Of a DNA stretch of 25,705 nucleotides, positions 4,037 to 19,538 are shown piece by piece. A program made the translations under genes and the position numbers. The stretch comes from a virus: positions 1 to 25,705 of IMG/VR virus record IMGVR_UViG_3300032087_003584; one strand, written 5' to 3'. Every line of letters starts with the position of its first letter. Position 1 is the stretch's first letter. Under the pieces are notes generated by a model. The model worked only from the letters and a program-made list of their open reading frames with translations. It made no database searches and was not told where the DNA came from.

Positions 4037-4076
4037 TTATCATCATTTATCATCATTTATCATCATCATTATCATT
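4037..4076 (+). repeat. G-free intergenic element 1 (3 decamers plus tail)
   Basis: It has three copies of TTATCATCAT (4037, 4047, 4057) followed by CATTATCATT (4067-4076), without a single G on the + strand. It is identical over 40 bp to the elements at 7264 and 17795. It lies between the portal stop and the scaffold SD site (AAAGGAGA, about 4085-4092). TTATCA at 4047-4052 and TATCAT at 4070-4075 are 17 bp apart, like a weak sigma70 promoter. Function unknown. Confidence 0.95.
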
Positions 4077-4101
4077 CACCCCATAAAGGAGACTAGCCAC
4101 C

Positions 4102-4758
4102 ATGGAAACCAAAGAAATCGACGGCGTCGAATACGTCAAAAAATCCGAAGTCGAGAACATCATAAAACAACGCGTCGACAAAGTCGCCAGCCGCGCGAAC
4201 GAAGCCGAACTAGCGAACAAAGATTTACAAAGCAGACTAGAAAAGGCATCGAAGAGCGATTCGACAATCGATTTACTGACACAACAAATCGAACAGATGA
4301 AACAACAGCTCACGAAAAGCGAACAAAAGTATACGAGATTCCAAAGCATGTCGAAACATGGACTCGTCGACCCAGACATCGTGGACGCGATAGAGTGGAG
4401 TTACGAAAAGTCGCAAGCCGGAAAGAAGAAAAGCGAAGTCGTAAACCTTGGCGAATGGTTGGACTCAATCGTGGAAGACCCAACGACCGCGCCCACGGTC
4501 CTACGTCCACACCTCCAAAACCTACGACCAGAAGCGGTGGACACTCCAGACGATATGGACGTCGATACGTCGACACAAAACCAACTCGCACAACTGGAAC
4601 AGGTCGAACGGCGACCAGCTCCACAAACAAACAACGGCGTACGACCTTCGCCAGAACCATCGAACCTTATCGACCGCGGTTTACAGGACGCCGAGTTTTA
4701 CGCACAGAATCGCGAACAGATTAAAAAGGCGTGGATGTCGCGAAGAAGAGAGAAATAG
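4102..4758 (+). CDS. Probable capsid scaffold protein
   Basis: This 218-residue, highly charged protein is probably the internal scaffold that guides capsid assembly and is then lost. Residues about 12-80 are predicted by eye to be helical or coiled-coil (many Glu, Lys, Gln; ITQQ-type heptads such as LLTQQIEQMKQQLTKSEQK). A middle region around 85-135 is more globular. Residues about 135-195 are Pro/Gln/Asn/Thr-rich and likely disordered. The C-terminus is helical and basic (REQIKKAWMSRRREK), like the capsid-binding tail of known scaffolds. It lies between portal and major capsid. The SD site AAAGGAGA stands about 9 nt before the ATG. It carries no protease motif. Confidence 0.75.
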   Translation: METKEIDGVEYVKKSEVENIIKQRVDKVASRANEAELANKDLQSRLEKASKSDSTIDLLTQQIEQMKQQLTKSEQKYTRFQSMSKHGLVDPDIVDAIEWSYEKSQAGKKKSEVVNLGEWLDSIVEDPTTAPTVLRPHLQNLRPEAVDTPDDMDVDTSTQNQLAQLEQVERRPAPQTNNGVRPSPEPSNLIDRGLQDAEFYAQNREQIKKAWMSRRREK

Positions 4759-4760
4759 TC

Positions 4761-5063
4761 ATGGCGGAAAATCTTAAAGGGGTAAACGAGTTTCCGTATT
4801 ACAAAACGATTGCAGTCGACACGACGACGACCGAGATACAGTTACCAAGCGAAGCGAGAATCATAACCATCGGTTCGGAAACATTGACCGTATATGTAAG
4901 TCAGAACGGAGCCAGCGACGGTGGAGCGGTCCCCGCGGACCGCGTGTTTATTCCGTCCAATAACTTGTTACCGATTCGAATCGGTGTCGGTTTACAAAGG
5001 CGAAATATTTTTATTTCGGCGAAGACCGGAACCGGGAACGTACACATACAGTTAGAAGAATAG
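4761..5063 (+). CDS. Small beta-rich virion protein, head module
   Basis: This 100-residue protein is not assigned to a family. Alternating hydrophobic and polar residues suggest an all-beta fold (for example EIQLPSEARIITIGSETLTVYVSQ, spread over residues about 25-48, and RNIFISAKTGTGNVHIQLEE at the end). It starts at ATG 4761, 2 nt after the scaffold stop. No strong SD site precedes it, which suggests coupling. Its place between scaffold and capsid, with two further beta-rich genes after it, suggests a head decoration protein or head-fibre base. It contains a 7-bp GC-rich inverted repeat at 4926-4943 with a 4-nt loop. Confidence 0.65.
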   Translation: MAENLKGVNEFPYYKTIAVDTTTTEIQLPSEARIITIGSETLTVYVSQNGASDGGAVPADRVFIPSNNLLPIRIGVGLQRRNIFISAKTGTGNVHIQLEE

Positions 5064-5084
5064 ACCACATTATATGGATTGACG

Positions 5085-5342
5085 ATGGCGGGATTTATCT
5101 ATACAGTATCAACAGGAGCGGAAGAAGTGAAAAAAGAAAACCTGACTTCGCAGATCAACGGAACACGAACGACATTTACCGTACAAGAAGAGTACAAAAC
5201 CGGTTCGTTGCGTGTATATTACAACGGAGTACGACAAATCGAAGACGAAACGTTTACCGAAACCACTTCGACGACTTTTACTCTCACTTTTACAACGATT
5301 ACAGGCGACTACTTATCAATTGATTACACACCAAACAATTAG
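5085..5342 (+). CDS. Small fibre-type beta-domain protein
   Basis: This 85-residue protein shows a beta-sandwich pattern common in phage fibre and appendage proteins: an NGTRTTFTV strand, then GSLRVYYNGVRQ, an F-T-E stretch, a FTLTF strand and GDYLSIDY near the end. The C-terminal domain of the next gene (5351-6943) follows the same order (TSFTLS, DVFVFRNGLFL, CTIVF, DKVVVKY), so the two probably share a fold. I chose the ATG at 5085; a TTG two codons earlier (5079) is possible. No convincing SD site is seen. It is probably a virion surface component, either a decoration protein or an accessory to a head fibre. Confidence 0.65.
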   Translation: MAGFIYTVSTGAEEVKKENLTSQINGTRTTFTVQEEYKTGSLRVYYNGVRQIEDETFTETTSTTFTLTFTTITGDYLSIDYTPNN

Positions 5343-5350
5343 GAGATACC

Positions 5351-6943
5351 ATGGCCATCCAAATCGCCGGTAACCAAATCAAAAGTGGAGCGGTAGACAC
5401 TTCACAAATCGCAGACGCGGCAATCGAAGCCGCAAAATTAGACCTATCCGATAACTTTGTTTTTACGGGACAGCTTCGCGCACCAACACCGAGCAATGAC
5501 GCAGACGTAGCGATTAAATCATACGTCGACGGCATCGTAGGAAGTGGTGTTTTTTGGAAGGAGCCGGCCGAAGCCGCTTCGACTGGAAACGTAACTCTTT
5601 CGAATCCCGGCGTATCGGCGTTCGATAACCATACTGTTTCTAGTGGAGCTCGTATTTTGATTAGAGCTCAGGACGCGGACGACGAGAACGGAGTTTGGAT
5701 TTACAACGGCTCATCTAGTGCGATGACACGCGCCACAGATTGTGACAGCGCAGAAGAGCTGAACGGAATGGCAATCTTCGTAACCGACGGCGATACATAC
5801 GCCGACCAAGCGTTCGTACAGACTTCAACGATTTCGACCCTAGATACCGACGCAGTTACATACGTTCGATTCTCTGGACTCGGACAAGTTACAGCCGGCG
5901 ACGGTCTCGCCAAATCCGGTGATACTCTTTCTGTAAACGTCGACGATTCATCTATCGAAATCTCTCTTGATTCACTACGCGTAAAAGACCTCGGAATCAG
6001 TAACGCAAAACTCGCCGGGTCCATTTCAGCCGATAAGCTCGCGGGCGGTATTGGAGATTCCAAACTTTCTACAATCACTAGCGCGAACAAAGTTTCCGGT
6101 AGTGCGGTACAACTCAACGGTAGTGGAGGACTTGAAAATCTATCCGGTCTGAAAATTTCCGACCTTGGAGTTAGCGCGGCAATGCTAGCCGGTTCTATTC
6201 CAGATTCCAAGCTCAACCAAATCGCAACCGCGGACAAAGTCGCCGGTAGTGCGGTCCAACTTGCGACCGGTGGTGGACTTGCAGACGACAGCGGATTGAA
6301 AGTGGATACCAACGGAATCGAAACCGCGATGATTGGCGATTCTCAAGTGACAAGCGCAAAACTCGCCGGCTCTATTCCAGATTCCAAACTTTCCACAATC
6401 AGCACCGCCGACAAAGTATCTGGTAGCGCGGTCCAACTCGCCGCGAGCGGTGGACTATCCGATAACTCAGGTCTTCAAATTTCAGCCAGTGGCGTTAGCG
6501 CGGCAATGCTCGCCGGTTCTATCCCCGATTCAAAGCTCAACCAGATTACCAGCTCGGCAAAAGTCGCCGGTAGTGCGGTTCAACTTGCGAGCGGTGGTGG
6601 ACTTGCGAACGACAGTGGATTGAAGGTCGATACCAACGGAATCGAAACCGCGATGGTTGGAGCAAATCAAATCACAGCGGCTAAGATTAACTTCGAACCA
6701 ACACGCGAAACATTGACGACAAACGGTAACGATACTTCGTTCACTCTTTCGAACTCGGTTCCAGATAACTTCGACGACGTATTCGTATTTCGTAACGGTC
6801 TATTCTTGGACCGCGTCGCATCGAATCCAAGTGGAGTCGACGAATACACATCTTCGATTACTTCTAATTCTTGTACAATCGTTTTCGGAACCGCACCAGC
6901 GGCATCAGATAAAGTCGTTGTAAAGTATTTCCAACTTAAATAG
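5351..6943 (+). CDS. Repeat-containing fibre-like virion protein
   Basis: This 530-residue protein is probably a trimeric fibre or appendage. Residues 1-70 resemble the attachment region of T4/cyanophage-like fibres (IKSGAVDTSQIADAAIEAAKL). Residues about 70-210 form a beta-rich domain beginning VFWKEPAEAASTGNVTLS. Residues about 215-445 hold four units of about 50-58 residues, each with AGSIPDSKL, GSAVQL and SGLK motifs. The C-terminal 80 residues form a beta-sandwich. AGGAGA lies 6 nt before the ATG. It sits in the head module, upstream of the capsid gene, rather than with the tail tip, so a head fibre is plausible; a displaced tail fibre is the alternative. Confidence 0.75.
   Translation: MAIQIAGNQIKSGAVDTSQIADAAIEAAKLDLSDNFVFTGQLRAPTPSNDADVAIKSYVDGIVGSGVFWKEPAEAASTGNVTLSNPGVSAFDNHTVSSGARILIRAQDADDENGVWIYNGSSSAMTRATDCDSAEELNGMAIFVTDGDTYADQAFVQTSTISTLDTDAVTYVRFSGLGQVTAGDGLAKSGDTLSVNVDDSSIEISLDSLRVKDLGISNAKLAGSISADKLAGGIGDSKLSTITSANKVSGSAVQLNGSGGLENLSGLKISDLGVSAAMLAGSIPDSKLNQIATADKVAGSAVQLATGGGLADDSGLKVDTNGIETAMIGDSQVTSAKLAGSIPDSKLSTISTADKVSGSAVQLAASGGLSDNSGLQISASGVSAAMLAGSIPDSKLNQITSSAKVAGSAVQLASGGGLANDSGLKVDTNGIETAMVGANQITAAKINFEPTRETLTTNGNDTSFTLSNSVPDNFDDVFVFRNGLFLDRVASNPSGVDEYTSSITSNSCTIVFGTAPAASDKVVVKYFQLK
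6170..6654 (+). repeat. In-frame 324-bp duplication inside the fibre gene
   Basis: The stretch starting at 6170 recurs at 6494, and the one starting at 6241 recurs at 6565, both with an offset of exactly 324 bp (108 codons). The copies differ by only scattered bases. This is a recent tandem duplication of two protein repeat units within the gene at 5351-6943. Confidence 0.85.
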
Positions 6944-6967
6944 ACACTCTCCAACCGTACTGTTTGT

Positions 6968-6998
6968 GGCCGGTCAGTAATGGCCGGCCTTTTTATTT
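6968..6998 (+). terminator. Rho-independent terminator after fibre gene
   Basis: GGCCGG (6968-6973) pairs with CCGGCC (6984-6989) across a 10-nt loop and is followed by T5ATTT. It lies 24 nt after the fibre stop codon and before the HNH gene. It would separate the fibre transcript from the HNH/capsid segment, at least in part. Confidence 0.8.
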
Positions 6999-7011
6999 CC
7001 TCGGATAGACA

Positions 7012-7260
7012 ATGGCAACAAAGAAAAAAAATTACAAAGAGATATACAAGAAATACCACGCGGACCCAATCGACAAAAAACGCCGCGCGATGCGAAACAC
7101 AGCTCGTCGACGAATGGCGAAAGCTGGACTCGTAAAAAAGGGAGACGGTAAACACGTCGACCATATAAAACCACTTTCGAAAGGTGGAACCAACGGTCGA
7201 AAAAATCTTCGCGTGGTATCGGCGCGAACGAATCTTCGAAAAGGGAATCGCAGAAAGTAA
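7012..7260 (+). CDS. Small HNH-family endonuclease
   Basis: This 82-residue, very basic protein carries a HNH nuclease core at residues about 45-80: HVDHIKPLSKGG, N65 in KNLRVVS, then NLRKGN. The third motif position is Asn rather than His (a HNN variant), as in many small phage HNH proteins. No zinc-binding cysteines are present. The first 40 residues are Lys/Arg-rich and probably bind DNA. It is the only gene between a terminator and the capsid promoter, which fits a mobile insertion. A role in packaging or head processing is the alternative, because HNH proteins assist terminase in some phages. It has no strong SD site; GGATAGACA precedes the ATG. Confidence 0.85.
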   Translation: MATKKKNYKEIYKKYHADPIDKKRRAMRNTARRRMAKAGLVKKGDGKHVDHIKPLSKGGTNGRKNLRVVSARTNLRKGNRRK

Positions 7261-7263
7261 TTT

Positions 7264-7303
7264 TTATCATCATTTATCATCATTTATCATCATCATTATC
7301 ATT
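7264..7303 (+). repeat. G-free intergenic element 2
   Basis: It has three TTATCATCAT units (7264, 7274, 7284) plus CATTATCATT (7294-7303), identical over 40 bp to the elements at 4037 and 17795. It starts 3 nt after the HNH stop codon and ends directly against the -35 box of the capsid promoter, so here it occupies the place of an UP element (about -37 to -76). Confidence 0.95.
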
Positions 7304-7304
7304 G

Positions 7305-7333
7305 TTGCACGTAACCGAATAAACGTGTATACT
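7305..7333 (+). promoter_or_regulatory. Strong sigma70-like promoter for the capsid gene
   Basis: TTGCAC (7305-7310) and TATACT (7328-7333) are separated by exactly 17 bp. Each is a 4/6 to 5/6 match to the consensus. The predicted start is near 7340, giving a leader of about 97 nt before the capsid ATG. An A/T-rich element lies immediately upstream. Confidence 0.75.
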
Positions 7334-7339
7334 GAAAAC

Positions 7340-7436
7340 GAGCTATAAACATTCGCTCTCAGTGGGGACGGTCGCACCGGTAACAGCAGAACACCCCCGG
7401 AAAAAGAATAACCTTTAGACCCCACGAGAAAAAATC
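7340..7436 (+). promoter_or_regulatory. Structured 5' leader of capsid mRNA
   Basis: The leader contains two inverted repeats: GAGC (7340-7343) with GCTC (7355-7358), and GTGGGG (7362-7367) with CCCCAC (7420-7425). The second would close a 52-nt loop and bring its 3' arm next to the weak SD site (GAG at 7426-7428). This arrangement could modulate or stabilise the capsid mRNA. Folding is inferred by eye. Confidence 0.4.
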
Positions 7437-8363
7437 ATGGCAACAAATACTTATTCGTCTATGTCAGACGTTCGTATGGCCTCAATGGTCAGCGCAGAAA
7501 TTAACCTACTCTTAAAAGATACCGCAAACCTTCGAAACACTGGTCTTATTCAGTACATAGGTTCCATAAATGGCCTAGGAACATCAGCGATTAAAGTTCG
7601 AAAAATCGGTTTGGGGGGGCGAGACTCGTTCGCTAGTCGTACCGAAGTACAAGCAGTGTCCGACACAAGCATTACAGACGATTCAGTAACCGTAACACCG
7701 TCTCGTTATTCACTACGTTACGACATTTCGGACCTATTGAACCTCACAGCAACAAACGCACGTTTTGAGCCGGACCCCTTCGCATTGGCGGCATCTATGG
7801 CCGGTTCATACGACAAACTCTTCGCGGAGCTCACAGGCGCGGCGGGAGCGGCGGCGACCGCCGGAACCAGCACCAGTGGCGCGACAATGTCCGTATCTAC
7901 TTTCTTCGAAGGTATTTACGACTTGGAACGAGCAGACAGCGAAATCGGCGCCCCCGGTCCATTCTATAGCGTTTTGCATCCAAAAAGCTTAACCGAGCTA
8001 CAAGCATCACTTAGGTCAGAACAGAACAACATTATTTCTCAAATGATGGCGACCGAGGAAATGATTGCGGCCAAGGGACTTGGATACGTTGGAAAACTTT
8101 TCGGCGTAGACGTATATCGCTCTTCTCACATCGATAGCGATGGAACAGACTACGAAAACTTCATGGCCGATAGTGGCGCGCTCGGATACGCGGACGGTGT
8201 ACCACAGATTCTCGGAGCACCAGAAACCATGGAAATGGATAAATTAGTCGTGGAGCTACAGCGTGAGGCAACAACAGCAATTACAAGTGTTATTGGGCAT
8301 TGTTACCTCTCGGTGTCTATTTTAGACCAAAACCGAATTGTACGACTTCTTGCGGTAGACTAG
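7437..8363 (+). CDS. Major capsid protein
   Basis: This 308-residue protein is the likely HK97-fold shell subunit. Support comes from its place after portal and scaffold, its typical length, and its sequence character. It has an N-terminal helix-rich arm, a strand region with YSLRYDISDLLNLT, an Ala/Gly-rich loop (about residues 135-150), a peripheral helix with FYSVLHPKSLTELQASLR and a C-terminal beta segment. The VGKLFGVDVYRSSHI stretch is characteristic of HK97-type capsids. It has its own promoter and a long leader but only a weak SD site. No N-terminal delta domain or protease gene is seen, consistent with a separate scaffold. A G7 run at 7613-7619 does not disturb the frame. Confidence 0.88.
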   Translation: MATNTYSSMSDVRMASMVSAEINLLLKDTANLRNTGLIQYIGSINGLGTSAIKVRKIGLGGRDSFASRTEVQAVSDTSITDDSVTVTPSRYSLRYDISDLLNLTATNARFEPDPFALAASMAGSYDKLFAELTGAAGAAATAGTSTSGATMSVSTFFEGIYDLERADSEIGAPGPFYSVLHPKSLTELQASLRSEQNNIISQMMATEEMIAAKGLGYVGKLFGVDVYRSSHIDSDGTDYENFMADSGALGYADGVPQILGAPETMEMDKLVVELQREATTAITSVIGHCYLSVSILDQNRIVRLLAVD

Positions 8364-8381
8364 AACCGTATTCTTTGTGGC

Positions 8382-8425
8382 ATAATCGGCGGTAGTTTAT
8401 CTAGTCGCCTGTTATCGCCGGTTAT
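8382..8425 (+). promoter_or_regulatory. Hairpin in the gap after the capsid gene
   Basis: Arms at 8382-8394 (ATAATCGGCGGTA) and 8413-8425 (TATCGCCGGTTAT) pair over 13 positions, with two changes that can form G-U pairs, around an 18-nt loop. There is no U-tract afterwards, so it is more likely an mRNA 3'-end stabiliser or partial attenuator than a full terminator. It fills most of the 96-nt gap. Confidence 0.6.
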
Positions 8426-8459
8426 GTCACTCTTTAACATCAGGCACTAGGATTTTAAC

Positions 8460-9098
8460 ATGTCATACGACAACATTTCGCAACCTTGGCAAGCATCCAA
8501 GACAAGCGTAACCAAACGAATACCGAAACAAGCGAACTCATCTTGGAGATACATACACCATCCGACATCGTGGTCGCTGGAATATGTACAGGACGGGAAG
8601 AAGAAAGACAAGAAACCAATTTGGTTACCAAAGTTTTCTCGACTCGTACTAAAGCCAGGCGTAAACGGTATTTCGGGAACCGAGGATAATCCAGATACTC
8701 GACTTGCACGATTACAAGTAACCGACAACGGATGTACGATTATCGACCCAGAGCGATACGATTATCTTCGAATATACCCCGCTATCGGTGGAGACTTGAC
8801 CGTAAACAAGTGGACGAAAATCGAAAACCTTGGCGGTCGTGTCTTCATGAGTGGAGACGACGCCGGATTCGCTGAGTTTCGACGCGAGCTGGTCGCAGAC
8901 GGAGCGATTAAACCCCCACACGAACAAGTAATCGCCGGTCTCATAATGAAACAACAAGAAATTATTACCATGCACTCTTCGAAGCCGCATATACCACAAG
9001 CGATGAAAGAACAAACCGCCGCCGAACAGAAGCTCGCAGACATGCAGAAAGCGACCGAAGCGGTAAAAAAAGAAGGGATAAAGTATTATGAATCGTAA
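8460..9098 (+). CDS. Head-module protein of unknown function
   Basis: I do not recognise this 212-residue protein. Residues 1-30 are polar and probably flexible. Residues about 30-130 look beta-rich and aromatic (SSWRYIHHPTSWSLEY, then KPIWLPKFSRLVLKPGVNG). Residues about 135-212 are helical and charged, with a likely coiled coil near the end (AAEQKLADMQKATEAVKK). It directly follows the capsid gene and precedes connector genes, so it is probably a head-associated structural or assembly protein. The ATG at 8460 has only a weak SD site. Its last codons overlap the start of the next small gene by 11 nt. Confidence 0.7.
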   Translation: MSYDNISQPWQASKTSVTKRIPKQANSSWRYIHHPTSWSLEYVQDGKKKDKKPIWLPKFSRLVLKPGVNGISGTEDNPDTRLARLQVTDNGCTIIDPERYDYLRIYPAIGGDLTVNKWTKIENLGGRVFMSGDDAGFAEFRRELVADGAIKPPHEQVIAGLIMKQQEIITMHSSKPHIPQAMKEQTAAEQKLADMQKATEAVKKEGIKYYES

Positions 9099-9246
9099 CG
9101 ATAGAGACGCTTTTAACCGCGTCGCGAAAAGAATCAAAGAGCACAGCGAAAAGACCGGTCGACCAGTAACGATGGACACCGCGAAACGTGAGCTCGCAAA
9201 ACATTTAACACAGGCCGACAACCGCAAAAACCAACGGAGAAATTAA
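9088..9246 (+). CDS. Small basic protein, 52 residues
   Basis: This short gene is supported by AGAAGGGA 8-9 nt before the ATG at 9088, an 11-nt overlap with the previous gene, and a stop 1 nt before the ATG of the next gene. Without it there would be an unexplained 149-nt gap. The product is very basic and helical (RDAFNRVAKRIKEHSEKTGR, then TMDTAKRELAKHL) and may bind nucleic acid or act in head assembly. The family is unknown. Confidence 0.65.
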   Translation: MNRNDRDAFNRVAKRIKEHSEKTGRPVTMDTAKRELAKHLTQADNRKNQRRN

Positions 9247-9247
9247 C

Positions 9248-9577
9248 ATGGCATACGCATCAGATAACGGATATGTATTCGACAACCGCCCCCTTTTTCG
9301 TGGTGGTGTCAAAAAAGAAGAACTTTCAGGCGCAAAAGTATTAAATGAATCAAGCGAATCATTTTTGATTTACGACAATCAGGCTGGAAGCTCGGTTATC
9401 GTGACACTCGCACCAGAAAAAGACGGTTCGTATCAGTGGATTAAATGCCATGCAGATTCCGGACACCAATTGGAAATCAGAAACGACGCCACCGCAACAA
9501 TTACATATTTGACAGTCGGACAAAGCGCACTTTTCGTATGTGCTGGTTCAGATTGGCATGTAATGATTAAGGCATAA
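9248..9577 (+). CDS. Beta-rich structural protein, possible decoration
   Basis: This 109-residue protein looks all-beta: short alternating strands (SFLIYDNQAGSSVIVTLAP, then ATITYLTVGQSALFVCAG) separated by Gly/Asp turns, ending in DWHVMIKA. It sits between head genes and the connector gene, with CGGAGA 6-7 nt before the ATG. Size and location fit a capsid decoration or cementing protein, or a small neck component. No family-specific motif is recognised, so the role is inferred from context. Confidence 0.6.
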   Translation: MAYASDNGYVFDNRPLFRGGVKKEELSGAKVLNESSESFLIYDNQAGSSVIVTLAPEKDGSYQWIKCHADSGHQLEIRNDATATITYLTVGQSALFVCAGSDWHVMIKA

Positions 9578-9583
9578 TAAATC

Positions 9584-10357
9584 ATGTCGACCGACTCCAC
9601 ACCGTACGCACCACGTATTCGATACATCGAACTATTAGAACGAAATGTATCGAATACTACACGCCTTGAAATATACAGAGACGGCGCGCAGATTATACCG
9701 ACCGCCGCGAAGTATACTTTAATACGTCCAGACGGTGTCGGAGTCGTACAGGACGCGACCGCCACCGTACTTGGCGACGGTACGTTACAATATACACATC
9801 CATCTAATCATTTCCCAGATAATATAAATCTAGGCGAGGGATATGTACAAAGCTGGACAGCCACGATCAGTGGCGAAGATTATGTATTTCGTCGTTCGGT
9901 TGCTCTTGTATTGCGTCGACTATATCCGACGGTATCCGATACAGATTTAGAGACCGAATACAGCGACCTTGGAAACCTACGCCCGGCGAGTCTATCTTCG
10001 TACCAAACGTATATCGATTCTTCGTGGTACGAGATTCTTCGACGCGTTCGTCGTACTGGAATGGGATACGAGTATCTTGTATTAACGCCAGAATCGTTCC
10101 ACGATACTTTGTTACACCTGACACTCTATAAAATCTTTCGTGATTTTCACAGCTCACTTGGACAAGCTGGTAACGCGCGTTTTCTCGACTTGGCGAACGC
10201 CCACCTATCGCACTACAACGCAGAGTATGACGCAATTAATTTCGTTTACGATGAAAATCACGAAGGAAGAGCAGACGAACCGAACAAAAGAACACGCGGT
10301 CGACCTGTTATTTACTTGACCGCGCCCGGTCCTAACCGATTCCTAAAAAGACGATGA
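9584..10357 (+). CDS. Head-tail connector (adaptor) protein
   Basis: This 257-residue protein appears to have two parts. Residues about 10-115 form a beta domain (TRLEIYRDGAQIIPTAAKYT and later SWTATISGEDYVFRRSVAL), similar to immunoglobulin-like add-ons. Residues about 118-230 form a helical bundle (SSWYEILRRVRRTG, FHDTLLHLTLYKIFRDFHSS, AHLSHYNAEYDA) that resembles adaptor proteins docking under the portal (HK97 gp6 or SPP1 gp15 type). It lies between capsid genes and the tail terminator, the usual adaptor position. The SD site is weak. The stop overlaps the next ATG as ATGA at 10354-10357. Confidence 0.65.
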   Translation: MSTDSTPYAPRIRYIELLERNVSNTTRLEIYRDGAQIIPTAAKYTLIRPDGVGVVQDATATVLGDGTLQYTHPSNHFPDNINLGEGYVQSWTATISGEDYVFRRSVALVLRRLYPTVSDTDLETEYSDLGNLRPASLSSYQTYIDSSWYEILRRVRRTGMGYEYLVLTPESFHDTLLHLTLYKIFRDFHSSLGQAGNARFLDLANAHLSHYNAEYDAINFVYDENHEGRADEPNKRTRGRPVIYLTAPGPNRFLKRR

Positions 10358-10773
10358 ATTTATCCGGTGTCAGAAATGCAATAATCGCGAAAGTGGATGG
10401 TATGACAGGTTTTCGAATGTCTCCATTTCCGGTGGAGCTCTTCGACCGGTCACAAAACACACTCGCACATCTTGCGTTCGCGGTCTCTATTGGTTCAACA
10501 CAATCGATGGACGAACGACAAAGAGTACCGACACGCGTATACATGTCTTCGAACGTTTCTGTAATCTTCGCGTATCGGATTCGACCGCATAGCATATCAA
10601 CAGATTACAATAACGCACTAGATAAAGAAGTCGAAGTTATCGAAACCTTGCTCGGTTCTTATGCTTCGACGCCTGGAATCGAAATAAGATATAATCAATC
10701 GACGCGAACATTCGCCCAAAGTCTAGAATATGTTCTCGTCGAACTAACCTTTACAGTAATACACACACCATAA
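10354..10773 (+). CDS. Tail terminator / tail completion protein
   Basis: This 139-residue protein probably forms the ring that caps the finished tail tube and joins it to the head. An N-terminal helix (VRNAIIAKVDGM) is followed by strands and a central helix with the pattern of lambda gpU-type proteins (DKEVEVIETLLGSY), ending in paired strands (LEYVLVELTFTVIHTP). The length is typical. It precedes the tail tube gene directly and overlaps the adaptor gene by 4 nt, suggesting coupled translation. Identity rests on fold pattern and gene order. Confidence 0.7.
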   Translation: MNLSGVRNAIIAKVDGMTGFRMSPFPVELFDRSQNTLAHLAFAVSIGSTQSMDERQRVPTRVYMSSNVSVIFAYRIRPHSISTDYNNALDKEVEVIETLLGSYASTPGIEIRYNQSTRTFAQSLEYVLVELTFTVIHTP

Positions 10774-10782
10774 GGAGAAACC

Positions 10783-11292
10783 ATGAGTTACAGTGTTGTA
10801 CCCAAAATGCGCCGCGATGGTAAAATCGTCTTGAAAGATGCAACCGGAACCCCAGTTACATTGGAAGTCGCGTTCGAAAGTGGAGATTTTAACTTTACAC
10901 CAACAAAGGCCGCCGAAGTCGTAATCAGAGACCGACACGCGATTACAAATGTTCGAAAAGGCGACGAAGAACCGACCGCGACCGGCTCATTTACAATTTT
11001 TATGCGAGAGTTTACAGACAGCGCGCAAGCTGGAAACGTAATGGATTTCGTAAACAAAACCGGTAACTACTCTTCGAACATTTCCACCGGTGCAACCGGA
11101 ACACCACGTATCGAAGAATACTGTATCGACATCGAATATACAGCAGAAGGAACCGACAATGGAGACGACGCGGACCACGTCGCGACACTTTCGAAATGTA
11201 TTTGTAATGTCGTATTTACAGAAGGCGACCCAAGTACATTGGCGATAAACTTTACTTGTTACGGTGGTGTAACTTATACCGGACCGGCATAA
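10783..11292 (+). CDS. Major tail (tube) protein
   Basis: This 169-residue protein probably builds the non-contractile tail tube. It is beta-rich with one short helix region (QAGNVMDFVNKTG), as in tube proteins of siphoviruses. Strands include GKIVLKDATGTPVTLEVAF and ATLSKCICNVVFTEGD, ending in the common final strand of tube proteins (TLAINFTCYGGVTYTG). It has a clear SD site (AAGGAGA) and stands between the tail terminator and tail chaperone, the conserved place. Length is on the short side but within the range for tube subunits. Confidence 0.8.
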   Translation: MSYSVVPKMRRDGKIVLKDATGTPVTLEVAFESGDFNFTPTKAAEVVIRDRHAITNVRKGDEEPTATGSFTIFMREFTDSAQAGNVMDFVNKTGNYSSNISTGATGTPRIEEYCIDIEYTAEGTDNGDDADHVATLSKCICNVVFTEGDPSTLAINFTCYGGVTYTGPA

Positions 11293-11295
11293 AGT

Positions 11296-11331
11296 TTATC
11301 ATCATTTATCATCATCATTATCATTATCATC
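11296..11331 (+). repeat. G-free intergenic element 3
   Basis: It has two TTATCATCAT units (11296, 11306), the CATTATCATT tail (11316-11325) and a further ATCATC. It lacks one decamer compared with the 40-bp form but keeps TTATCA (11296-11301) and TATCAT (11319-11324) 17 bp apart. It lies between the tube gene stop and the chaperone SD site (GAGGAC). Confidence 0.93.
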
Positions 11332-11345
11332 TGTGAGGACTAGAC

Positions 11346-11720
11346 ATGGACGTAATAAAACTCGGTAAATGGGGAAGCGTAAAAACTTCCCCGCCAAACA
11401 TGGCCACCTGTTTTGAATTTGTTATATCGTGGACAAATTGTGGAGACGATATGGCCCAGCTCGCGCGGATATGCAGTGGCGCAATTGGAGCAATCGCGAA
11501 CGAACGATTACCCAAGTATCGACCGTCAGTACATAAACCAAGCGAGTATGGACATATCTGTTTAAATACAATGTTAGAGAACGGAATCGACACCGGTTCG
11601 ATACTCCAAAACGGTACGCGTGTATTACAGTACATGTCGGAACAATTGCCACGTACGGAGGATGTCGACGACAAAGCCGATTTTTTGTCGGACACACCGC
11701 CGGCGGACTTAGGCGGTTAG
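11346..11720 (+). CDS. Tail assembly chaperone, short form
   Basis: This 124-residue protein is the zero-frame product, equivalent to lambda gpG. It should bind the tape measure during tail assembly and is not expected in the finished virion. It is helical in the middle (DDMAQLARICSGAIGAIA) and contains NTMLENGIDTGSILQNG. The last ten codons lie after a slippery heptamer, so a fraction of ribosomes will leave this frame before the TAG at 11718. GAGGAC serves as SD site for the ATG at 11346. Position between tube and tape measure, plus the frameshift arrangement, supports the call strongly even though the sequence itself is not distinctive. Confidence 0.82.
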   Translation: MDVIKLGKWGSVKTSPPNMATCFEFVISWTNCGDDMAQLARICSGAIGAIANERLPKYRPSVHKPSEYGHICLNTMLENGIDTGSILQNGTRVLQYMSEQLPRTEDVDDKADFLSDTPPADLGG

Positions 11721-11929
11721 AGCTTGATATATGTAAAGAGTGGAACAAGGACCCGGATTGGTTCGCAAGTCTACCCGCCGAAACGAAAGTCGAGTTAATC
11801 GCATACCATCAAATATCGAACGAAACGTCCAAAGATACAAAGGACAGATTAAAGAGGTATAATGTAAAAAAGATCAGGCGCGCACAAGAGAACCACCGGA
11901 AGAGATATGGCGAGAAAAATATCAGTTAA
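11346..11929 (+). CDS. Tail assembly chaperone, -1 frameshift form (gpG-T type)
   Basis: Ribosomes slipping by -1 on T TTT TTG (11681-11687) read on through a second open frame to TAA at 11927-11929. The product is 194 residues: 114 shared, then 80 from the new frame. The extension carries EWNKDPDWFASLPAETKVEL followed by IAYHQISNE, the hallmark of the T domain of tail chaperones (Trp-containing acidic start, then a leucine/proline turn and a helix). Its C-terminus is basic (KKIRRAQENHRKRYG). This explains the 186-nt stretch 11721-11906 that otherwise has no gene. It overlaps the start of the next gene by 23 nt. Confidence 0.85.
11681..11717 (+). promoter_or_regulatory. Programmed -1 frameshift site with stimulatory stem
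   Basis: The heptamer T TTT TTG at 11681-11687 is in the correct phase for zero-frame GAT TTT TTG. After an 8-nt spacer, ACCGCC (11696-11701) can pair with GGCGGT (11712-11717) around a 10-nt loop, giving a perfect 6-bp GC-rich stem. The heptamer, spacing, stem and downstream open frame together match known bacterial and phage -1 sites. Confidence 0.85.
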
Positions 11930-12473: not shown

Positions 12474-12481
12474 GAGACCAC

Positions 12482-14485
12482 ATGGCAGACGTGAACAAGA
12501 CAATCGAAATCAGCATGACAGCCGATTTGAAAAGTCTCCAAAAGCAGTTATCGAAAATCCCGGGGATGACAAAAGAAGAAGCCAAGGCAATGACGAAGGC
12601 TTTACAAAAGGAGCTCAAACAAGCACAAGCCGCCGCGAAGAAGACCGCACAAGTAAACAAGCGGGCAATGGCACAAGTAACCAAGGCGAACAACCAAGCC
12701 GCACGAAGCGCAAAGAATCTACGAACACAATCTCGCGAAATGGGCGCGGCGTTCGGTTCGTTGGAAGATGTTGTCGGGGAAGTATCGCCAGAGCTCGCCG
12801 GTCTCGCGATGACAGTCGGTACAGTCGGACAAGGTTTTCGCGCGTTATCGCGGTCCATGGCCACTGGTAATCCACTTGTCTTGGCACTCGTCGCAAGTGT
12901 CGCCGCACTCGCCGCCGGCTATCACATCTTGACCAGCGCAAGTCGAGAAGCCGAGCAAAGACAAAAGGACCTTGCGAAAGCCGCGGAACAACTCAACGAA
13001 AAGTTATCGAAACAACGAGACATCGCGAACGAAGTCGTATCGGCACATCGCGAAGCGACGTTGGAACTAGAAGTCTTTACCGGTCAGATTTCAGAACTAG
13101 ACGCGGAAATCTTGAAGGCAAGAGACGCCGCCGGGGACCAGCTCGCGAAACAACTAGAGAAACAAGACGAGATTATATCGGCACAAGAGAAAAACATAGA
13201 GCTCGCAAAGAAAGCCGAATCGTCGTATTCAAGTCTCACAGACGAAGAAAAAGAACAACTTCGGTTACTTATGAACTCGTCGAAACTTCGCGAAGTTAAT
13301 AACGGTATGGCTTCGACGAGCGCTGGTTTCGGTGCACAAATGCGAGCTTTACAAACCGAGTTAAACGAGCAACTCGCAAGAGAAGCCGGATTTCGAACAA
13401 AAATCGAAACCACCAATAAACAGACATTGGAGACACGCGAAGAACTTTTACGACTACAAGAGGAATACGCCAAAGAGCAACGCGAAGAAGAGAAGAGACA
13501 AGAGCAAATCGCGAAGGCTAGAGAAGCCGCACTACAACGACAAAAGGATTTACAAGACGCAATAAACGCAAGTACAAAGACGTTCGAAGCCACACAAGGT
13601 CGTATCGATTCTTTACGTATTTCACGACTCGCAGACGAAGAGCAGATCAACGCGAACGCACAAAAGCGAAAAGAAGAAATACAAGCGGAAATAGATTTAT
13701 TATACGAACAATTCGAAGCCGCCGAAGAGATAGCACGAACACAAAAAGATAAAGCCAAACTCGCTGAATTAGATATGGAAGCCGCGAAGGCGACCGCCAA
13801 ATTAATGGAAGAACAAAGCGAAGTCGAGAAGCAACGTTTACACGAAGTCGCAGAGCTTCGAAAGAAGTTACGCGAAGACGAACAGAAAGAACAAGAGAAG
13901 GCAGACAAAAAGAAAGCGAAGGCAGATAAAGAGCTCGCCGATCAGTTTATCGCACTACAAGAAACAAGACTTAGAGCGGTTACGGATGTCTTCGCGTACG
14001 GACTACAACTGGCACAGGAGACCGGAAACAAAAACAAAGATTTAATCAATGTCTTGTTTCGTGCGAACCAAGCCGCCGCCGTCGCTGATATTGTAATGAG
14101 TACGGCGCAAGCGGTCGCCGCCGCCCCAGCTCAGTACGGACCATTCGCACCGGCCGCGATACCAGCAATCGTGGCGAGCGGTGCGGTCCAACTTGGAATC
14201 GTAGCCGCACAGAAACCACCGTTACACATGGGTGGTATTGTACAACCACTTGCACCGGATGAACAAAATCGTACTCTTTTATCCGGTGAAGCAGTTTTAG
14301 ACCGCGCCACCACTAGACGCCTGGGCGAAGATGGAATAAATCGTCTTCAAAATGGGAAAAGTGGAGGACCAGACGTTATCGTTATGTCTCCATTTAAACA
14401 TCTTGACCGGTACAATCGATCAGCTCTTCGAAATCCGAACTCGTCATTTTCGAAAATGAAGCCAACCAGACGAAGTCGGTATTAG
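12482..14485 (+). CDS. Tape measure protein
   Basis: This 667-residue protein sets tail length and is injected with the DNA. Long Glu/Lys/Gln/Ala-rich coiled coils fill residues about 15-75 and 155-510. A hydrophobic segment near residues 138-155 (LVLALVASVAALAAGYHI) could enter the host membrane. Residues about 540-585 are Ala-rich and hydrophobic, and LHMGGIVQ (about 590-597) is a motif common near the C-terminus of tape measures. At about 0.15 nm per residue, the known scaling predicts a tail of roughly 100 nm. AGGAGA precedes the ATG. It follows the frameshift chaperone as expected. No lysozyme or peptidase domain is visible. Confidence 0.9.
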   Translation: MADVNKTIEISMTADLKSLQKQLSKIPGMTKEEAKAMTKALQKELKQAQAAAKKTAQVNKRAMAQVTKANNQAARSAKNLRTQSREMGAAFGSLEDVVGEVSPELAGLAMTVGTVGQGFRALSRSMATGNPLVLALVASVAALAAGYHILTSASREAEQRQKDLAKAAEQLNEKLSKQRDIANEVVSAHREATLELEVFTGQISELDAEILKARDAAGDQLAKQLEKQDEIISAQEKNIELAKKAESSYSSLTDEEKEQLRLLMNSSKLREVNNGMASTSAGFGAQMRALQTELNEQLAREAGFRTKIETTNKQTLETREELLRLQEEYAKEQREEEKRQEQIAKAREAALQRQKDLQDAINASTKTFEATQGRIDSLRISRLADEEQINANAQKRKEEIQAEIDLLYEQFEAAEEIARTQKDKAKLAELDMEAAKATAKLMEEQSEVEKQRLHEVAELRKKLREDEQKEQEKADKKKAKADKELADQFIALQETRLRAVTDVFAYGLQLAQETGNKNKDLINVLFRANQAAAVADIVMSTAQAVAAAPAQYGPFAPAAIPAIVASGAVQLGIVAAQKPPLHMGGIVQPLAPDEQNRTLLSGEAVLDRATTRRLGEDGINRLQNGKSGGPDVIVMSPFKHLDRYNRSALRNPNSSFSKMKPTRRSRY

Positions 14486-14488
14486 AAG

Positions 14489-14531
14489 TTATCATCATTT
14501 ATCATCATCATTATCATTTATCATCATCATT
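14489..14531 (+). repeat. G-free intergenic element 4
   Basis: It has two TTATCATCAT units (14489, 14499), CATTATCATT (14509-14518) and a further partial unit ending CATCATCATT at 14531. TTATCA (14489) and TATCAT (14512) are 17 bp apart. It lies between the tape measure stop and the SD site TTGGAG of the next tail gene. Confidence 0.93.
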
Positions 14532-14543
14532 GGAGCCGTAACC

Positions 14544-17500
14544 ATGGGAACCAACAAAACGCCAGACAATCTACGCGGGTTTTTATTACCACACAACATG
14601 GACTCGTCAAATATATGGTCCAGTGAATCGACATATACGAACGCCAATACACAACCAGCACAACCGAAACCCGGTGGAGATTATGATTTAGGTTTGACCA
14701 GCACCGGAAGCCACGACACGACCGATACAATACGAGTACAGACACAAAGAGCCGGACACATAGGCCGCGCGGCGTTCGTATGGCGCGAAGACGACGAGAC
14801 AGACTTTTACGGATACGACGCGCCGAACGCTATCGCGCGCTGGGATTCGATAATCAGTGGAACCACCGCAACATTAAACGAAAATGTATTACTGGACTCA
14901 ATCGGTAACGACGATGGCTCTTCGGTAATCTTGTATCAGTTTAAAGAAGCCGCAATCAGCCAAGAGAGACGAATAAAAGTATCTAAACGAAATCAAGTCG
15001 GAAGCCTAACAACGACGACCATATTTACGCAATCTTCGACCAGTACGCCAACGTTATACGGTGGTTTGTGCAGACTTTCGGACGGTTCGATACTTGCTGT
15101 GTATATGGAAGCAAACAACGACGCCGCGAATCTACAATCGGCGCGAAGCTACGACAACGGCGCGACATGGTATGTACAGTCGAAAACATGTTTACCAGCG
15201 GACATCGATTTAACCGGGTCTTTCGGAACTGGTAACACTGGTTTCGATTCCATCCAACGAATACGAATCGCCGAGTCGAGAGGAGAGATTTTATTGATTA
15301 TCGCGGCGGTCGCTCACAACACGACACCGGCTTCGACGGACCTAGTATTACAGTACGTTTCGACCGATAATGGATGTTCTTTCGTACATGTCGCCAATAA
15401 CGGTGGAACATTCGCATATTTTCGACCCGATTTAATCGTGAAGAACAACTCTTTCTTTGTGGGTTATATTTCGGCAACAGGACAAGCCGAAATCGTGGAA
15501 CTAGAATCGGCTACAATCCAATTGGATATAGCGAAGTTATTTTCGCCGCCGGAAATCACCGACTTATTAATCGCGTCGACATTGGTAAATAAACATTTCA
15601 CGAAAGGCGAGTTTTCTATGTGGACGAACGAAACTGGTCGAATCTATGCGGTATTTCATGCGGTGACATTGGAAGAACAGTTTTTTATCTTGCAAAGCGA
15701 CGACGCGACGAGCTGGTTTTATCTTGGCGGGAATCCGCTAACAAACCAAATAGACGCAAGCCAGATTTACAACATAGACGACAATCAATCGCGACCAAGT
15801 GTACTGGCCGGATGTAACGCGCGCGGTGTAAATCAACTATTTCACAACTACGAGACGAGAACACACAGTCGAGATAATGGTATACACTGTTTCGAACTTG
15901 GAACGTTTACGACCGTATCGATGCCAGCCGTAAAAGAGTTTCCTTTATCGTACGACTTTGGAGGATGGGACCGTACGTGGTGTTCATACGACAAGCCAGA
16001 CGACACAACCGAGTATACCGCGTTCGGTAGTGGGACCATAACCGCCGCCGCCGAGTATACCGAGTTTTCGACAACGACTTCACAAAACAAATTCGTACGG
16101 TCCGCGGCGATTACTTCGACATCTTCACAAGGGATTATTTTACGAACACGTCTTCGCGCGGTACAAGAAGGTTCGAACACCAGCGGTCGTGGAATAAACA
16201 TAACCACGAACGACAACTCGGTTAATATCTGGATAAATACAGACGCGATATACGTCGAAGATGATTTAGGCAGTTCGTCGATCAGTAATTACACGATGGA
16301 TACGACAACGACTTTCGAAATCTTGGCGAGTATTGCGAACAATAAATTAAATGTATGGGTAAATCAAAACGCCGATAGACCACGCGTAAAACGTTGGGTA
16401 AATATAGCGAGCGCAACCGTAACCACAAGCGGTGGATACCCGAACCAGTACGTACGATTCGGACACATAACCACAACCAGTGGAGCCACACAAGACACCG
16501 AGACAGAGTGGTACGAAATGCACTTCGCGTACGGCGACCGGACCGGCGCACAGCTAGACGGACAAACAAACCCCGAAGACCTGAACGCGAGACAATACCC
16601 CCCGAAAGGACAATTTGTTTATTTAACGGATGGTATAAAAATATCCACGTTCGATGGTCCGGCGTATCTTGGAGAGTATTACGACATCGAACCGGATTCG
16701 TTATATCCGATTCGACGCATATTCCATACGAGCTCACCAACACCAAGACAAGTGTACAGATCAGCAAACGAGACCGAACAGAAAATCGCGCTCTATTGGG
16801 ATACAACATTACAAGCCAGCGCGAATGGAAACATTGGTTCGGATTCAATCGGCGTATACCTGGGCAACATAAACTTTCGTTCGTTCGATATAGATGTATA
16901 CGACCAGTCTACGACATCTTGGGTAAATCTGGACACTGTAAATAATAAAATCGGCGGTACGACGTGGGAGAGAGTCGGGAACGTCATACGGTCCACAAAC
17001 GCAAGCGCGACCGGCGGTTATGTGGAGCTGGACGAATGTAAAGGATACTCTTTCGATTTCGGCGGTGGTATTGTTCGAAAGATTAAAGGAAATACAGCGG
17101 GATACCTGAACAACTCCACAACGACGATACGCGCGGTTCTATTCTTGGAAGATTTCGACAACTCAGACCCGACCACGATTACGACTGGTTATCTTATTCC
17201 CAATCAGGTCGTATATCTTCGACATCTTGCCGGCGCGACACCGGGCGCGGCCCTTCGAATCACAATCGACGCACAAGACACCGCCGACGGTTATTTTCAG
17301 ATAGGAGCATTTATGGCCGGTCCTTTTATCGCTCCACAGCAATACAGCAACGGTCGAACGATTACACATACGCCCGGCATCGAATCAAGCGAGACACAAG
17401 ATGGAGTTATACGGACCAGAAAAGTACACGACGGATACAGAAACATTCGTATCGCGTGGTCCCAAGGTGTCGACGTTTCGGAACTCTTCGAAGCAACGAG

Positions 17501-17792
17501 CGCAGATTATTACGCGGCGACCACAGCCGGTGGAGCATTACCGATCAGCGCGCCGGCGGATACTCCATATACGATGTTAAATCTACTTCGTAAAATGGAT
17601 GGCGAGTCGAGACCACTTGTTTACATTCCATCGATACCGGTAGGGATAAAACAGGATTATATAGGAAACTCGCGAAACGAGTTATTTTATGGAACTATCC
17701 AAGGTGAAATCAGTATCGAACACGTAATCGGGAACGAAAACGATTCGGAAGTATTCAGAGTTTCGACCATGAACATTCGCGAAATCATATAA
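14544..17792 (+). CDS. Large tail-tip protein with sialidase-like propeller
   Basis: This 1082-residue protein is the largest in the window and probably sits at the tail tip. The N-terminal 400-450 residues look like a beta-propeller of the sialidase/BNR type. Asp-box motifs are seen at SYDNGATW (about 202-209) and STDNGCSF (about 272-279), with a degenerate one at QSDDATSW (about 384-391). Residues about 500-680 resemble a concanavalin-like lectin domain. The C-terminal part (about 700-1082) is beta-rich and ends in RVSTMNIREII, a region like tail-tip or distal-tail proteins. It may bind or cleave surface glycans, but catalytic sialidase residues (Arg triad, Tyr, Glu) were not identified, so lectin-like binding is equally possible. 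Confidence 0.75.
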   Translation: MGTNKTPDNLRGFLLPHNMDSSNIWSSESTYTNANTQPAQPKPGGDYDLGLTSTGSHDTTDTIRVQTQRAGHIGRAAFVWREDDETDFYGYDAPNAIARWDSIISGTTATLNENVLLDSIGNDDGSSVILYQFKEAAISQERRIKVSKRNQVGSLTTTTIFTQSSTSTPTLYGGLCRLSDGSILAVYMEANNDAANLQSARSYDNGATWYVQSKTCLPADIDLTGSFGTGNTGFDSIQRIRIAESRGEILLIIAAVAHNTTPASTDLVLQYVSTDNGCSFVHVANNGGTFAYFRPDLIVKNNSFFVGYISATGQAEIVELESATIQLDIAKLFSPPEITDLLIASTLVNKHFTKGEFSMWTNETGRIYAVFHAVTLEEQFFILQSDDATSWFYLGGNPLTNQIDASQIYNIDDNQSRPSVLAGCNARGVNQLFHNYETRTHSRDNGIHCFELGTFTTVSMPAVKEFPLSYDFGGWDRTWCSYDKPDDTTEYTAFGSGTITAAAEYTEFSTTTSQNKFVRSAAITSTSSQGIILRTRLRAVQEGSNTSGRGINITTNDNSVNIWINTDAIYVEDDLGSSSISNYTMDTTTTFEILASIANNKLNVWVNQNADRPRVKRWVNIASATVTTSGGYPNQYVRFGHITTTSGATQDTETEWYEMHFAYGDRTGAQLDGQTNPEDLNARQYPPKGQFVYLTDGIKISTFDGPAYLGEYYDIEPDSLYPIRRIFHTSSPTPRQVYRSANETEQKIALYWDTTLQASANGNIGSDSIGVYLGNINFRSFDIDVYDQSTTSWVNLDTVNNKIGGTTWERVGNVIRSTNASATGGYVELDECKGYSFDFGGGIVRKIKGNTAGYLNNSTTTIRAVLFLEDFDNSDPTTITTGYLIPNQVVYLRHLAGATPGAALRITIDAQDTADGYFQIGAFMAGPFIAPQQYSNGRTITHTPGIESSETQDGVIRTRKVHDGYRNIRIAWSQGVDVSELFEATSADYYAATTAGGALPISAPADTPYTMLNLLRKMDGESRPLVYIPSIPVGIKQDYIGNSRNELFYGTIQGEISIEHVIGNENDSEVFRVSTMNIREII

Positions 17793-17794
17793 AT

Positions 17795-17834
17795 TTATCA
17801 TCATTTATCATCATTTATCATCATCATTATCATT
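17795..17834 (+). repeat. G-free intergenic element 5
   Basis: It has three TTATCATCAT units (17795, 17805, 17815) plus CATTATCATT (17825-17834), identical over 40 bp to the elements at 4037 and 7264. Only GGTTCGACC separates it from the ATG at 17844, with no SD site. The element itself is therefore the main feature upstream of this start. Confidence 0.95.
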
Positions 17835-17843
17835 GGTTCGACC

Positions 17844-19484
17844 ATGCAGTACACACAGACAGATTACGAAAACGCCGAACTCGTCTTTCTTATCGAAATA
17901 AACTGGTTCGGACAATACCACCGATTTAGTACACGACCAGTGGTGTTCGATGGATTCGAATACGGTGGCAGTCTATCCGAGATTACGTTCGAAGAGCAAG
18001 TCGACGACATGGGAATCGACCCACAATCGAACAGCGCGTCGATTAGTCTACATTTTGATGGATTCGACATGGTCCAAGAATACAGACGCGGTCGAACATT
18101 GGAAGGACAAAGAGCGACATTATCGTACATCCTCGTAAAAGACGACCAAGTATATTCGACCAGCTCGGTTCGTGTTTTATCTGGAATCATACAAGAGCCA
18201 ATAATCGGAGACCCGGAAGAGCCAGTATCGTTCGTCGCGTTTTCGTTGGAAGAGAAAGAGTACGACATCGAAGTACCGTTACTTTCTTCGAACAGTGAAA
18301 TAAACGAGAACAAGCACCCGAACGCAGACGACGCCGCAATCGGTAAAATGTACCCATTTATTCTTGGCGAACCGGGCGTAACAAGAAAAGCGGGAACGAT
18401 TGAACAACTCTTTTCGACACCAGCATACAATAACAAAGCGTACGACGTTGGAAGCCCACCACACGACGTATATTTTATCGTCGCGGGACATGCTACCATA
18501 GGCGAAACCGTACAGATATGGGACGGTGTAACAACTCCACTAACCAAGACCATCGAACCGGCAGTCGATGAGGATGGACAAAGATACGGTTATATCGATG
18601 TAACGTCGTCGCATCTTCTTTACACTGGACAAACCAGTCTCGCGAACAACGCCGAACACCCTAGCGAATACTGGTTAGCATGGACCGACGGTGGAGGAAT
18701 CGCGAACCCATACGGCGAAGGAGTATTAACCGGCGGCGGTGATGTGGTCCGGTATTTATTGAGTCGAACAGGAGTCGAGATGGACGACGCCGCGTTCGCG
18801 AACATTTCGCCGATACTGAACGAGTACAAATTCGCCGGATTCGTAAACGATGGAATCACGACCGCGTCATTATTGAACGAACACATATTACCGTACTTGC
18901 CTATACAGATAAAAGCCGGTCCGAAAGGTCTTCGACCTATTTTGTACCAATATATCGCACTTCAAAATGTACAACCGGTCGCGCATGTCATAAGCGGCCA
19001 AGGGGACTGGATACAAATTGGAGCACTTGAAACGACAACGAATACAAGTGAGATTTACAACGCGGTTCGACTCCACTACGCTTGGAACGGTATCGAAGAT
19101 TCGTTTTTCCATTCGTTGTATATGGGACCGGACGGCGTCGACGATGATTATTCGAAACGTAATCTTTATTCGCAGACATCGAAAAACCGTTACGGTGTTT
19201 CACAACAGACTTTCGAAGCAATGTTTATTTACGAAACGAGGACCGCCGCGCGATTTTGTGGAGATTTCATAAGACGAAACTCGTTTCCACGAAGATTCGT
19301 TCGGTTTATTGCTTCTTTGGAATACGGATTTTTACAACTTGGCGACGTAGTCGAGTTAACCAGCTCGTCGCTATACATGGATAGACAAAAATGTACGGTC
19401 GTTTCAAAAATGTGGGACGTTACCGAGTGGGTTTTCGTGCTCATGTTCGAAGATACGCCACTACATGTCGACCGCGCGACATAA
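17844..19484 (+). CDS. Tail-tip hub / baseplate protein
   Basis: This 546-residue protein is probably a tail-tip hub component. The N-terminal half has repeated strand pairs (ELVFLIEINWFGQYHRFST, then a segment around residues 40-75). The middle contains a beta domain around VYFIVAGHATIGETVQIWDG. The C-terminal 100 residues (TAARFCGDFIRR, then SLEYGFLQLGDVVELTSS and WVFVLMFED) have the pattern seen at the ends of siphophage hub proteins: ring-forming strands followed by a loop with LGDVVELT. It follows the propeller-bearing tail protein and precedes the lysin. No SD site is seen before the ATG; a G-free repeat lies directly upstream. A minor tail protein of lambda gpL type is the alternative. 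Confidence 0.7.
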   Translation: MQYTQTDYENAELVFLIEINWFGQYHRFSTRPVVFDGFEYGGSLSEITFEEQVDDMGIDPQSNSASISLHFDGFDMVQEYRRGRTLEGQRATLSYILVKDDQVYSTSSVRVLSGIIQEPIIGDPEEPVSFVAFSLEEKEYDIEVPLLSSNSEINENKHPNADDAAIGKMYPFILGEPGVTRKAGTIEQLFSTPAYNNKAYDVGSPPHDVYFIVAGHATIGETVQIWDGVTTPLTKTIEPAVDEDGQRYGYIDVTSSHLLYTGQTSLANNAEHPSEYWLAWTDGGGIANPYGEGVLTGGGDVVRYLLSRTGVEMDDAAFANISPILNEYKFAGFVNDGITTASLLNEHILPYLPIQIKAGPKGLRPILYQYIALQNVQPVAHVISGQGDWIQIGALETTTNTSEIYNAVRLHYAWNGIEDSFFHSLYMGPDGVDDDYSKRNLYSQTSKNRYGVSQQTFEAMFIYETRTAARFCGDFIRRNSFPRRFVRFIASLEYGFLQLGDVVELTSSSLYMDRQKCTVVSKMWDVTEWVFVLMFEDTPLHVDRAT

Positions 19485-19487
19485 CTT

Positions 19488-19527
19488 TTATCATCATTTA
19501 TCATCATTTATCATCATTTATCATCAT
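19488..19527 (+). repeat. G-free intergenic element 6 (four decamers, no tail)
   Basis: It has four perfect TTATCATCAT units (19488, 19498, 19508, 19518) without the CATTATCATT tail. This is the only element lacking the 17-bp hexamer spacing. It is followed by the SD site TTGAGG and the lysin ATG at 19539. Confidence 0.95.
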
Positions 19528-19538
19528 TGAGGCACCAC

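Follow-up and report, generated by a model that had tools for sequence, protein, structure and literature searches.

The late region of this virus carries six short tandem arrays without G, all in one orientation and each between two genes. What might such arrays do at these junctions, and are they kept in related phages? The stretch analysed is the whole virus record of 25.7 kb (hereafter the window). Its late module runs from the terminase small subunit to portal, head decoration, HNH protein, tape measure and tail genes, and is followed downstream by an exonuclease-like gene on the minus strand and a primase-like gene. The names MCP (capsid, 7437-8363) and scaffold (g05) are taken from gene position and are thus putative.

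Queries with the terminase, portal and g14 proteins found no relative among cultured phages, and the capsid protein found none among genome contigs. Where genome contigs matched the leader pattern, tblastn found nothing in them that resembles the window's late-gene proteins. Relatives were drawn from uncultured viral contigs and placed with the window proteins (tblastn) at 99% down to ~30% identity.

Arrays and other elements of the late gaps

The first-pass annotation had described six arrays in the same orientation, and our scan bears this out. With at most one mismatch, TTATCATCAT matches the whole window 25 times, always on the plus strand and within the six array sites, whereas shuffled windows give a mean of 2.03 such matches and a maximum of 5. 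A loosened array pattern recovers only the six known arrays, leaving the early region without any, as had been claimed; Markov-1 genomes give 0.01 full-length matches each. The exact TTATCATCATTTATCATCAT occurs in only nine stretches (eight contigs) among 2.9 million viral contigs, a rarity that speaks against a chance origin of the arrays. Four of these contigs are relatives (L011, L013/L014, L016, L017); the other four (L009, L010, L012, L015) have a single copy in unrelated context. Matches to a wider hexamer pattern are mostly single CATTAT or CACTAT microsatellites in unrelated contigs. The arrays and their neighbouring elements are:

4037..4076, + strand: G-free array at the portal/scaffold junction, followed by AAAGGAGACTAGCCACC-ATG; present in every element-bearing relative covering the junction
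6968-6995: intrinsic terminator GGCCGGTCAGTAATGGCCGGCCTTTTTATT, 3' of the decoration gene and retained in relatives
7264..7303, + strand: G-free array at the HNH/capsid junction, adjoining promoter-like sequence, not a Shine-Dalgarno (SD) sequence
7306..7334, + strand: promoter-like TTGCAC-N17-TATACT between the 7264 array and the capsid gene, read in gap sequences, putative in function
7364..7400, + strand: capsid-gene leader RNA GGGGACGGTCGCACCGGTAACAGCAGAACACCCC, kept in 13 relatives, to ~45% capsid identity
8364..8459, + strand: hairpin of the capsid/g11 gap, with an anti-RBS loop CTAGTCGCCTG complementary to the g11 RBS
11296..11332, + strand: G-free array at the g16/g17 junction, followed by GTGAGGACTAGAC-ATG
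14489..14531, + strand: G-free array at the tape measure/g20 junction, followed by GGAGCCGTAACC-ATG
17795..17834, + strand: G-free array at the g20/g21 junction, followed by GGTTCGACC-ATG
19488..19528, + strand: G-free array at the g21/g22 junction, with four perfect decamers, followed by GAGGCACCAC-ATG

Each of the six copies starts 1-9 nt past a stop codon, and in five of them the next start codon lies 9-25 nt downstream. The sixth, at 7264, is 133 nt upstream of the capsid gene, with the promoter-like sequence and the conserved leader intervening. Sequence comparison upholds the earlier observation that three copies (4037, 7264 and 17795) share one and the same 40-bp sequence (TTATCATCATTTATCATCATTTATCATCATCATTATCATT), the remaining ones having gained or lost parts. 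Also as first reported, arrays fill six of the eight non-coding late gaps longer than 40 bp; the two without an array hold the intrinsic terminator and the conserved hairpin. An apparent ninth gap (11721-11906) can be read through in the -1 frame. Here g17 runs on (11650-11906) after a GATTTTTTG-like run common to the relatives checked, a probable tail chaperone frameshift of the gpG/gpGT type.

The 17-nt spacer of the promoter-like sequence is also found in L038 (TTGCGT..TATAAT) and L025 (TTGCAA..TATAAT). The capsid leader has double changes in 3 of 10 predicted pairs and no match in Rfam. The hairpin loop at 8364..8459 is also complementary to the RBSs of scaffold, g17 and terS (RBSs of terS, scaffold, g11 and g17 at ~56-80, 4088-4101, 8444-8459 and 11333-11345, respectively). 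Hairpin and RBS covary across five lineage groups: the pair is CTAGTC/GACTAG in the window, GTAGTCTCC/GGAGACTAC in L048 and L050, GTGGGTCTC/GAGACCCAC in L030-L036, and GCTCCTC/GAGGAGC in G1 (contig 3300006802_010118; L157, L183), a distant relative whose portal is ~50% identical to that of the window. Among all 120 assignments of hairpin to RBS, mean duplex energy is lowest for the true pairing, whether g11 or the remaining genes are considered, in a comparison of five groups, which are few, and of a gene set picked after the pattern was seen. This hairpin of the capsid mRNA is possibly a late-gene riboregulator that would act in cis on g11 and perhaps in trans on scaffold, g17 and terS.

Related phages and turnover of the repeat unit

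The check for conserved placement proposed at first pass was made on homologous gaps excised from the relatives; these unfiltered gap sequences give a fairer view than the G-excluding detector. Arrays lie at corresponding late-gene junctions, and at additional ones, in related uncultured phages to ~50% protein identity, and every array found in them sits on the late-gene strand. Arrays at the same junctions occur in L105, L018, L106, L022/L023, L041, L038 and L025. The unit changes between them: it is TTATCATCAT in the window and L105, CACCATCATTATCATTAT in L018, CACCAT in L106 (partly), TTATCATCATCACCATCATCA in L022/L023, CATTATCATTATCAC in L041, and CACTATCCTAT in L038, L019 and L025. L018 is 98.7% identical to the window in terminase and 96.7% in portal, yet all three of its arrays are of the CACCATCATTATCATTAT type.

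Single junctions also gain and lose arrays. The 7264 array has the same position in L105, L018, L023 and L038, is shortened in L106, and lies before HNH in L025. Arrays with no counterpart in the window precede terL (L019, L022, L025, L038), g14 (L025, L047, L038), the tape measure gene (L025, L038), HNH (L025) and g07 (L041). At the g16/g17 junction, L025 has no array but a gap of just 23 nt that carries the same RBS, GGAGACTAGAC. Where an orthologous junction has no array, it consists of stop codon, SD and start codon only, in 16-27 nt (for example, TAAAATACAAACAGGAGACTAGACAC in L025 versus TAATAA-array-TTGGAGACTAGACATG in L038), and the array is therefore inserted between the stop codon and the SD. 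In many other relatives, at 45-58% identity, gaps are short and arrays are absent. The array label changes twice on the portal tree, and the arrays may have a single origin there.

In the distant relative G1, nine (CTATCA)n arrays are scattered along the late strand, each ending in CTGTCA followed by SD and start. The identical stretch runs on through GTCATAACAAGAGAATCTCATG at three genes, so that the SD and start codon belong to the copied unit.

Three further observations concern these junctions. A second small repeat, the palindromic TTCGAGTACTCGAGTA, lies between array and start codon in L038, L019, L024, L041 and L047, that is, near start codons in CACTATCCTAT-type lineages and in L041. 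The array is 3' of the HNH gene in the window (7012-7260) and 5' of it in L025 (7015-7304), which suggests either that HNH was inserted on separate occasions or that the array moved. In a comparison of the window with L013, g13 (9248-9577) is 44% identical while its neighbours g12 and g14 are 88% and 98% identical, a gene replacement at junctions without arrays.

Composition and similarity were compared over 42 array copies from nine lineages. These contain one G in 1,631 bases, a count made with a detector that itself excluded G; in the unfiltered gap sequences some L038 copies contain one or two G's. The distance from one A to the next is exactly 3 nt in 392 of 449 cases, and A-Y-A is absent. 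Folding predicts little pairing, in keeping with the proposal that the RNA is G-free and unstructured. The suspected homogenisation of separated copies is also borne out: 5-mer similarity is 0.947 within a genome versus 0.496 at the same junction of different lineages, which is no higher than for random copies (0.47 for unrelated pairs), and none of 2,000 label shuffles reached the observed within-genome excess. The homogenising process would be gene conversion or array copying. Constraint acts on the class (~40 nt, no G, an isolated A at about every third base, a place between stop and SD), not on the sequence.

Candidate roles of the arrays

Several roles can be set aside. Helical phasing, which the 10-bp period had suggested together with phased protein-binding sites, fails because relatives use units of 6, ~11 and ~18-21 nt at the same junctions; A's within arrays are spaced 3 nt apart, not by one helical turn. 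A transcription start, likewise put forward at first pass, is not supported: the best sigma-70-like score inside an array is 9/12 in the window but 7/12 in G1, in most G2 and G3 copies and in one G4 copy, and -35/-10 hexamers at 16-18 nt are not kept in relatives. An UP element could apply solely to the 7264 copy, as the others do not adjoin promoter-like sequence; we thus rejected promoter and UP element as the general role. Judged from sequence, the units keep neither RNase E nor IHF site motifs, and they keep no reading frame, which dismisses coding repeats.

In RNA folding the array alone has no predicted structure, and in context 56-90% of it is unpaired versus 46-51% for random inserts. 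In five copies this places a single-stranded region upstream of an SD; the 7264 copy is not upstream of one. Deleting the array in silico leaves predicted RBS accessibility unchanged, which speaks against unmasking of the RBS. An open array without effect on predicted RBS accessibility is more in line with a standby or loading site than with a device that unmasks the RBS. Our preferred reading, to which we would give somewhat less than an even chance, is that the arrays are a dispersed 5'-leader module, uniform within each genome, that serves ribosomes as a standby site or binds S1. Within the polycistronic late mRNA, every array would form ~40 nt of single-stranded, G-free RNA with isolated A's between pyrimidines, lying past the stop codon of a cistron and ahead of the SD sequence of the following one. 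Here 30S subunits could load independently at cistrons that are translationally uncoupled from their neighbour.

This reading is built on what we observe, namely where the arrays lie, their conservation, their freedom from G and from predicted structure, their gain and loss at single junctions, and their uniformity within a genome. The arrays would further have to be transcribed as leader RNA, bind S1 or the 30S subunit, and affect expression. Two copies speak against a leader, as does the predicted RBS accessibility, which the array leaves unchanged. The main misfit is the 7264 copy, upstream of a conserved promoter-like sequence and far from its gene; it may be a displaced leader, because at that place the array precedes HNH in L025 or a short ORF in G1. 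The other is a degenerate copy in L044 (6755-6790), which follows a terminator-like hairpin and has no plus-strand gene downstream. The isolated A's and the within-genome uniformity are left unexplained by a plain standby role.

The main rival is Rho loading, and among the roles first suggested we favour the translation enhancer over it. If the arrays were rut-like sites, transcription would continue past a junction only where the next gene is translated; at the capsid junction, transcripts from upstream would be cleared ahead of the capsid promoter. The copy before this promoter and the L044 copy after the late terminator fit such a role better than that of a leader, copies begin directly after stop codons, and the RNA is pyrimidine-rich, G-free and unstructured like Rho sites (PMC12350095, PMC12691595). 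Known rut sites, however, are ~80 nt and C-rich, whereas the arrays are ~40 nt with more U than C (PMC12691595). The nearby start codon in five of six cases also argues against Rho loading, as does the G1 unit, in which SD and start are included although Rho does not require them. We consider this rival unlikely.

A little less probable still is that the arrays are mainly products of slippage or recombination between spacers, selfish or neutral, or mark boundaries of gene exchange, with little effect on expression. The low-complexity unit, its fast turnover, and the coming and going of arrays at single junctions would be expected then. Constraint is indicated instead by strand bias, by the absence of G and, the genome being compact, by retention at the same junctions to ~66-72% identity, and the sharp replacement of g13 occurred where no array lies.

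Recognition by a single phage-encoded late-gene regulator that binds RNA or DNA, its specificity drifting with the arrays of its own genome, would account for the uniformity within genomes and the wholesale change between close lineages; the ESAS of Cluster K phages, also subcluster-specific in consensus, have been proposed as binding sites (PMC3203893). No candidate gene was identified, and among lineages whose terminase and portal are 97-99% identical, unit length and spacing differ widely, a pace of change that would be rapid for a protein coevolving with its sites. We therefore regard such a regulator as improbable, and a late-gene RNA regulon as more improbable again; in the latter a phage or hijacked host protein would read YAY-type repeats, and coevolution of array and reader would give relatives distinct codes.

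Should the arrays indeed be leaders, they would represent a portable, repeat-built module of translation initiation, copied among late genes, uniform per genome and changing wholesale between relatives. They would then offer a natural set of G-free enhancers of translation, and show clearly how a regulatory sequence evolves in concert within a virus. The function of start-associated repeats in phages becomes testable, because natural variants with and without an array share the same junction.

Known systems

Our literature search found no paper describing these arrays. Rut sites share pyrimidine-rich, G-free, unstructured RNA, but the arrays are shorter, built of repeats and mostly followed directly by SD and start. 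The omega leader of TMV is a G-poor, repeat-containing translational enhancer that is active in E. coli too. It resembles the arrays as G-free, unstructured, repeat-built RNA directly upstream of a start site; its sequence is unrelated, and it is a single copy at the 5' end of a plant-virus mRNA, whereas the arrays are numerous and internal to a phage polycistron. In halovirus HF2, too, gaps between virus genes hold several repeats; these contain AT-rich motifs and were tested as promoters (PMC8707807), unlike the arrays, whose promoter-like scores are not kept across lineages.

The closest known kind is the start-associated sequences (SAS) of Cluster K mycobacteriophages. The SAS has a fixed sequence of 13 bp that includes the SD and occurs in the non-structural half of the genome, and the ESAS are 17-bp inverted repeats whose consensus differs by subcluster; the position of both suggests a role in translation (PMC3203893). 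The SAS sequence GGGATAGGAGCCC itself was not found at start codons in the gap sequences of the window or its relatives. Arrays differ from SAS/ESAS in being G-free tandem repeats that precede the SD and belong to the structural (late) half, and in having almost entirely different units in close lineages. Like SAS/ESAS, which are dispersed upstream of the starts of some genes in nearly one orientation and mostly in gaps longer than 50 bp (PMC3203893), the arrays are dispersed, lie in a single orientation upstream of starts at gene gaps, and have a lineage-specific consensus.
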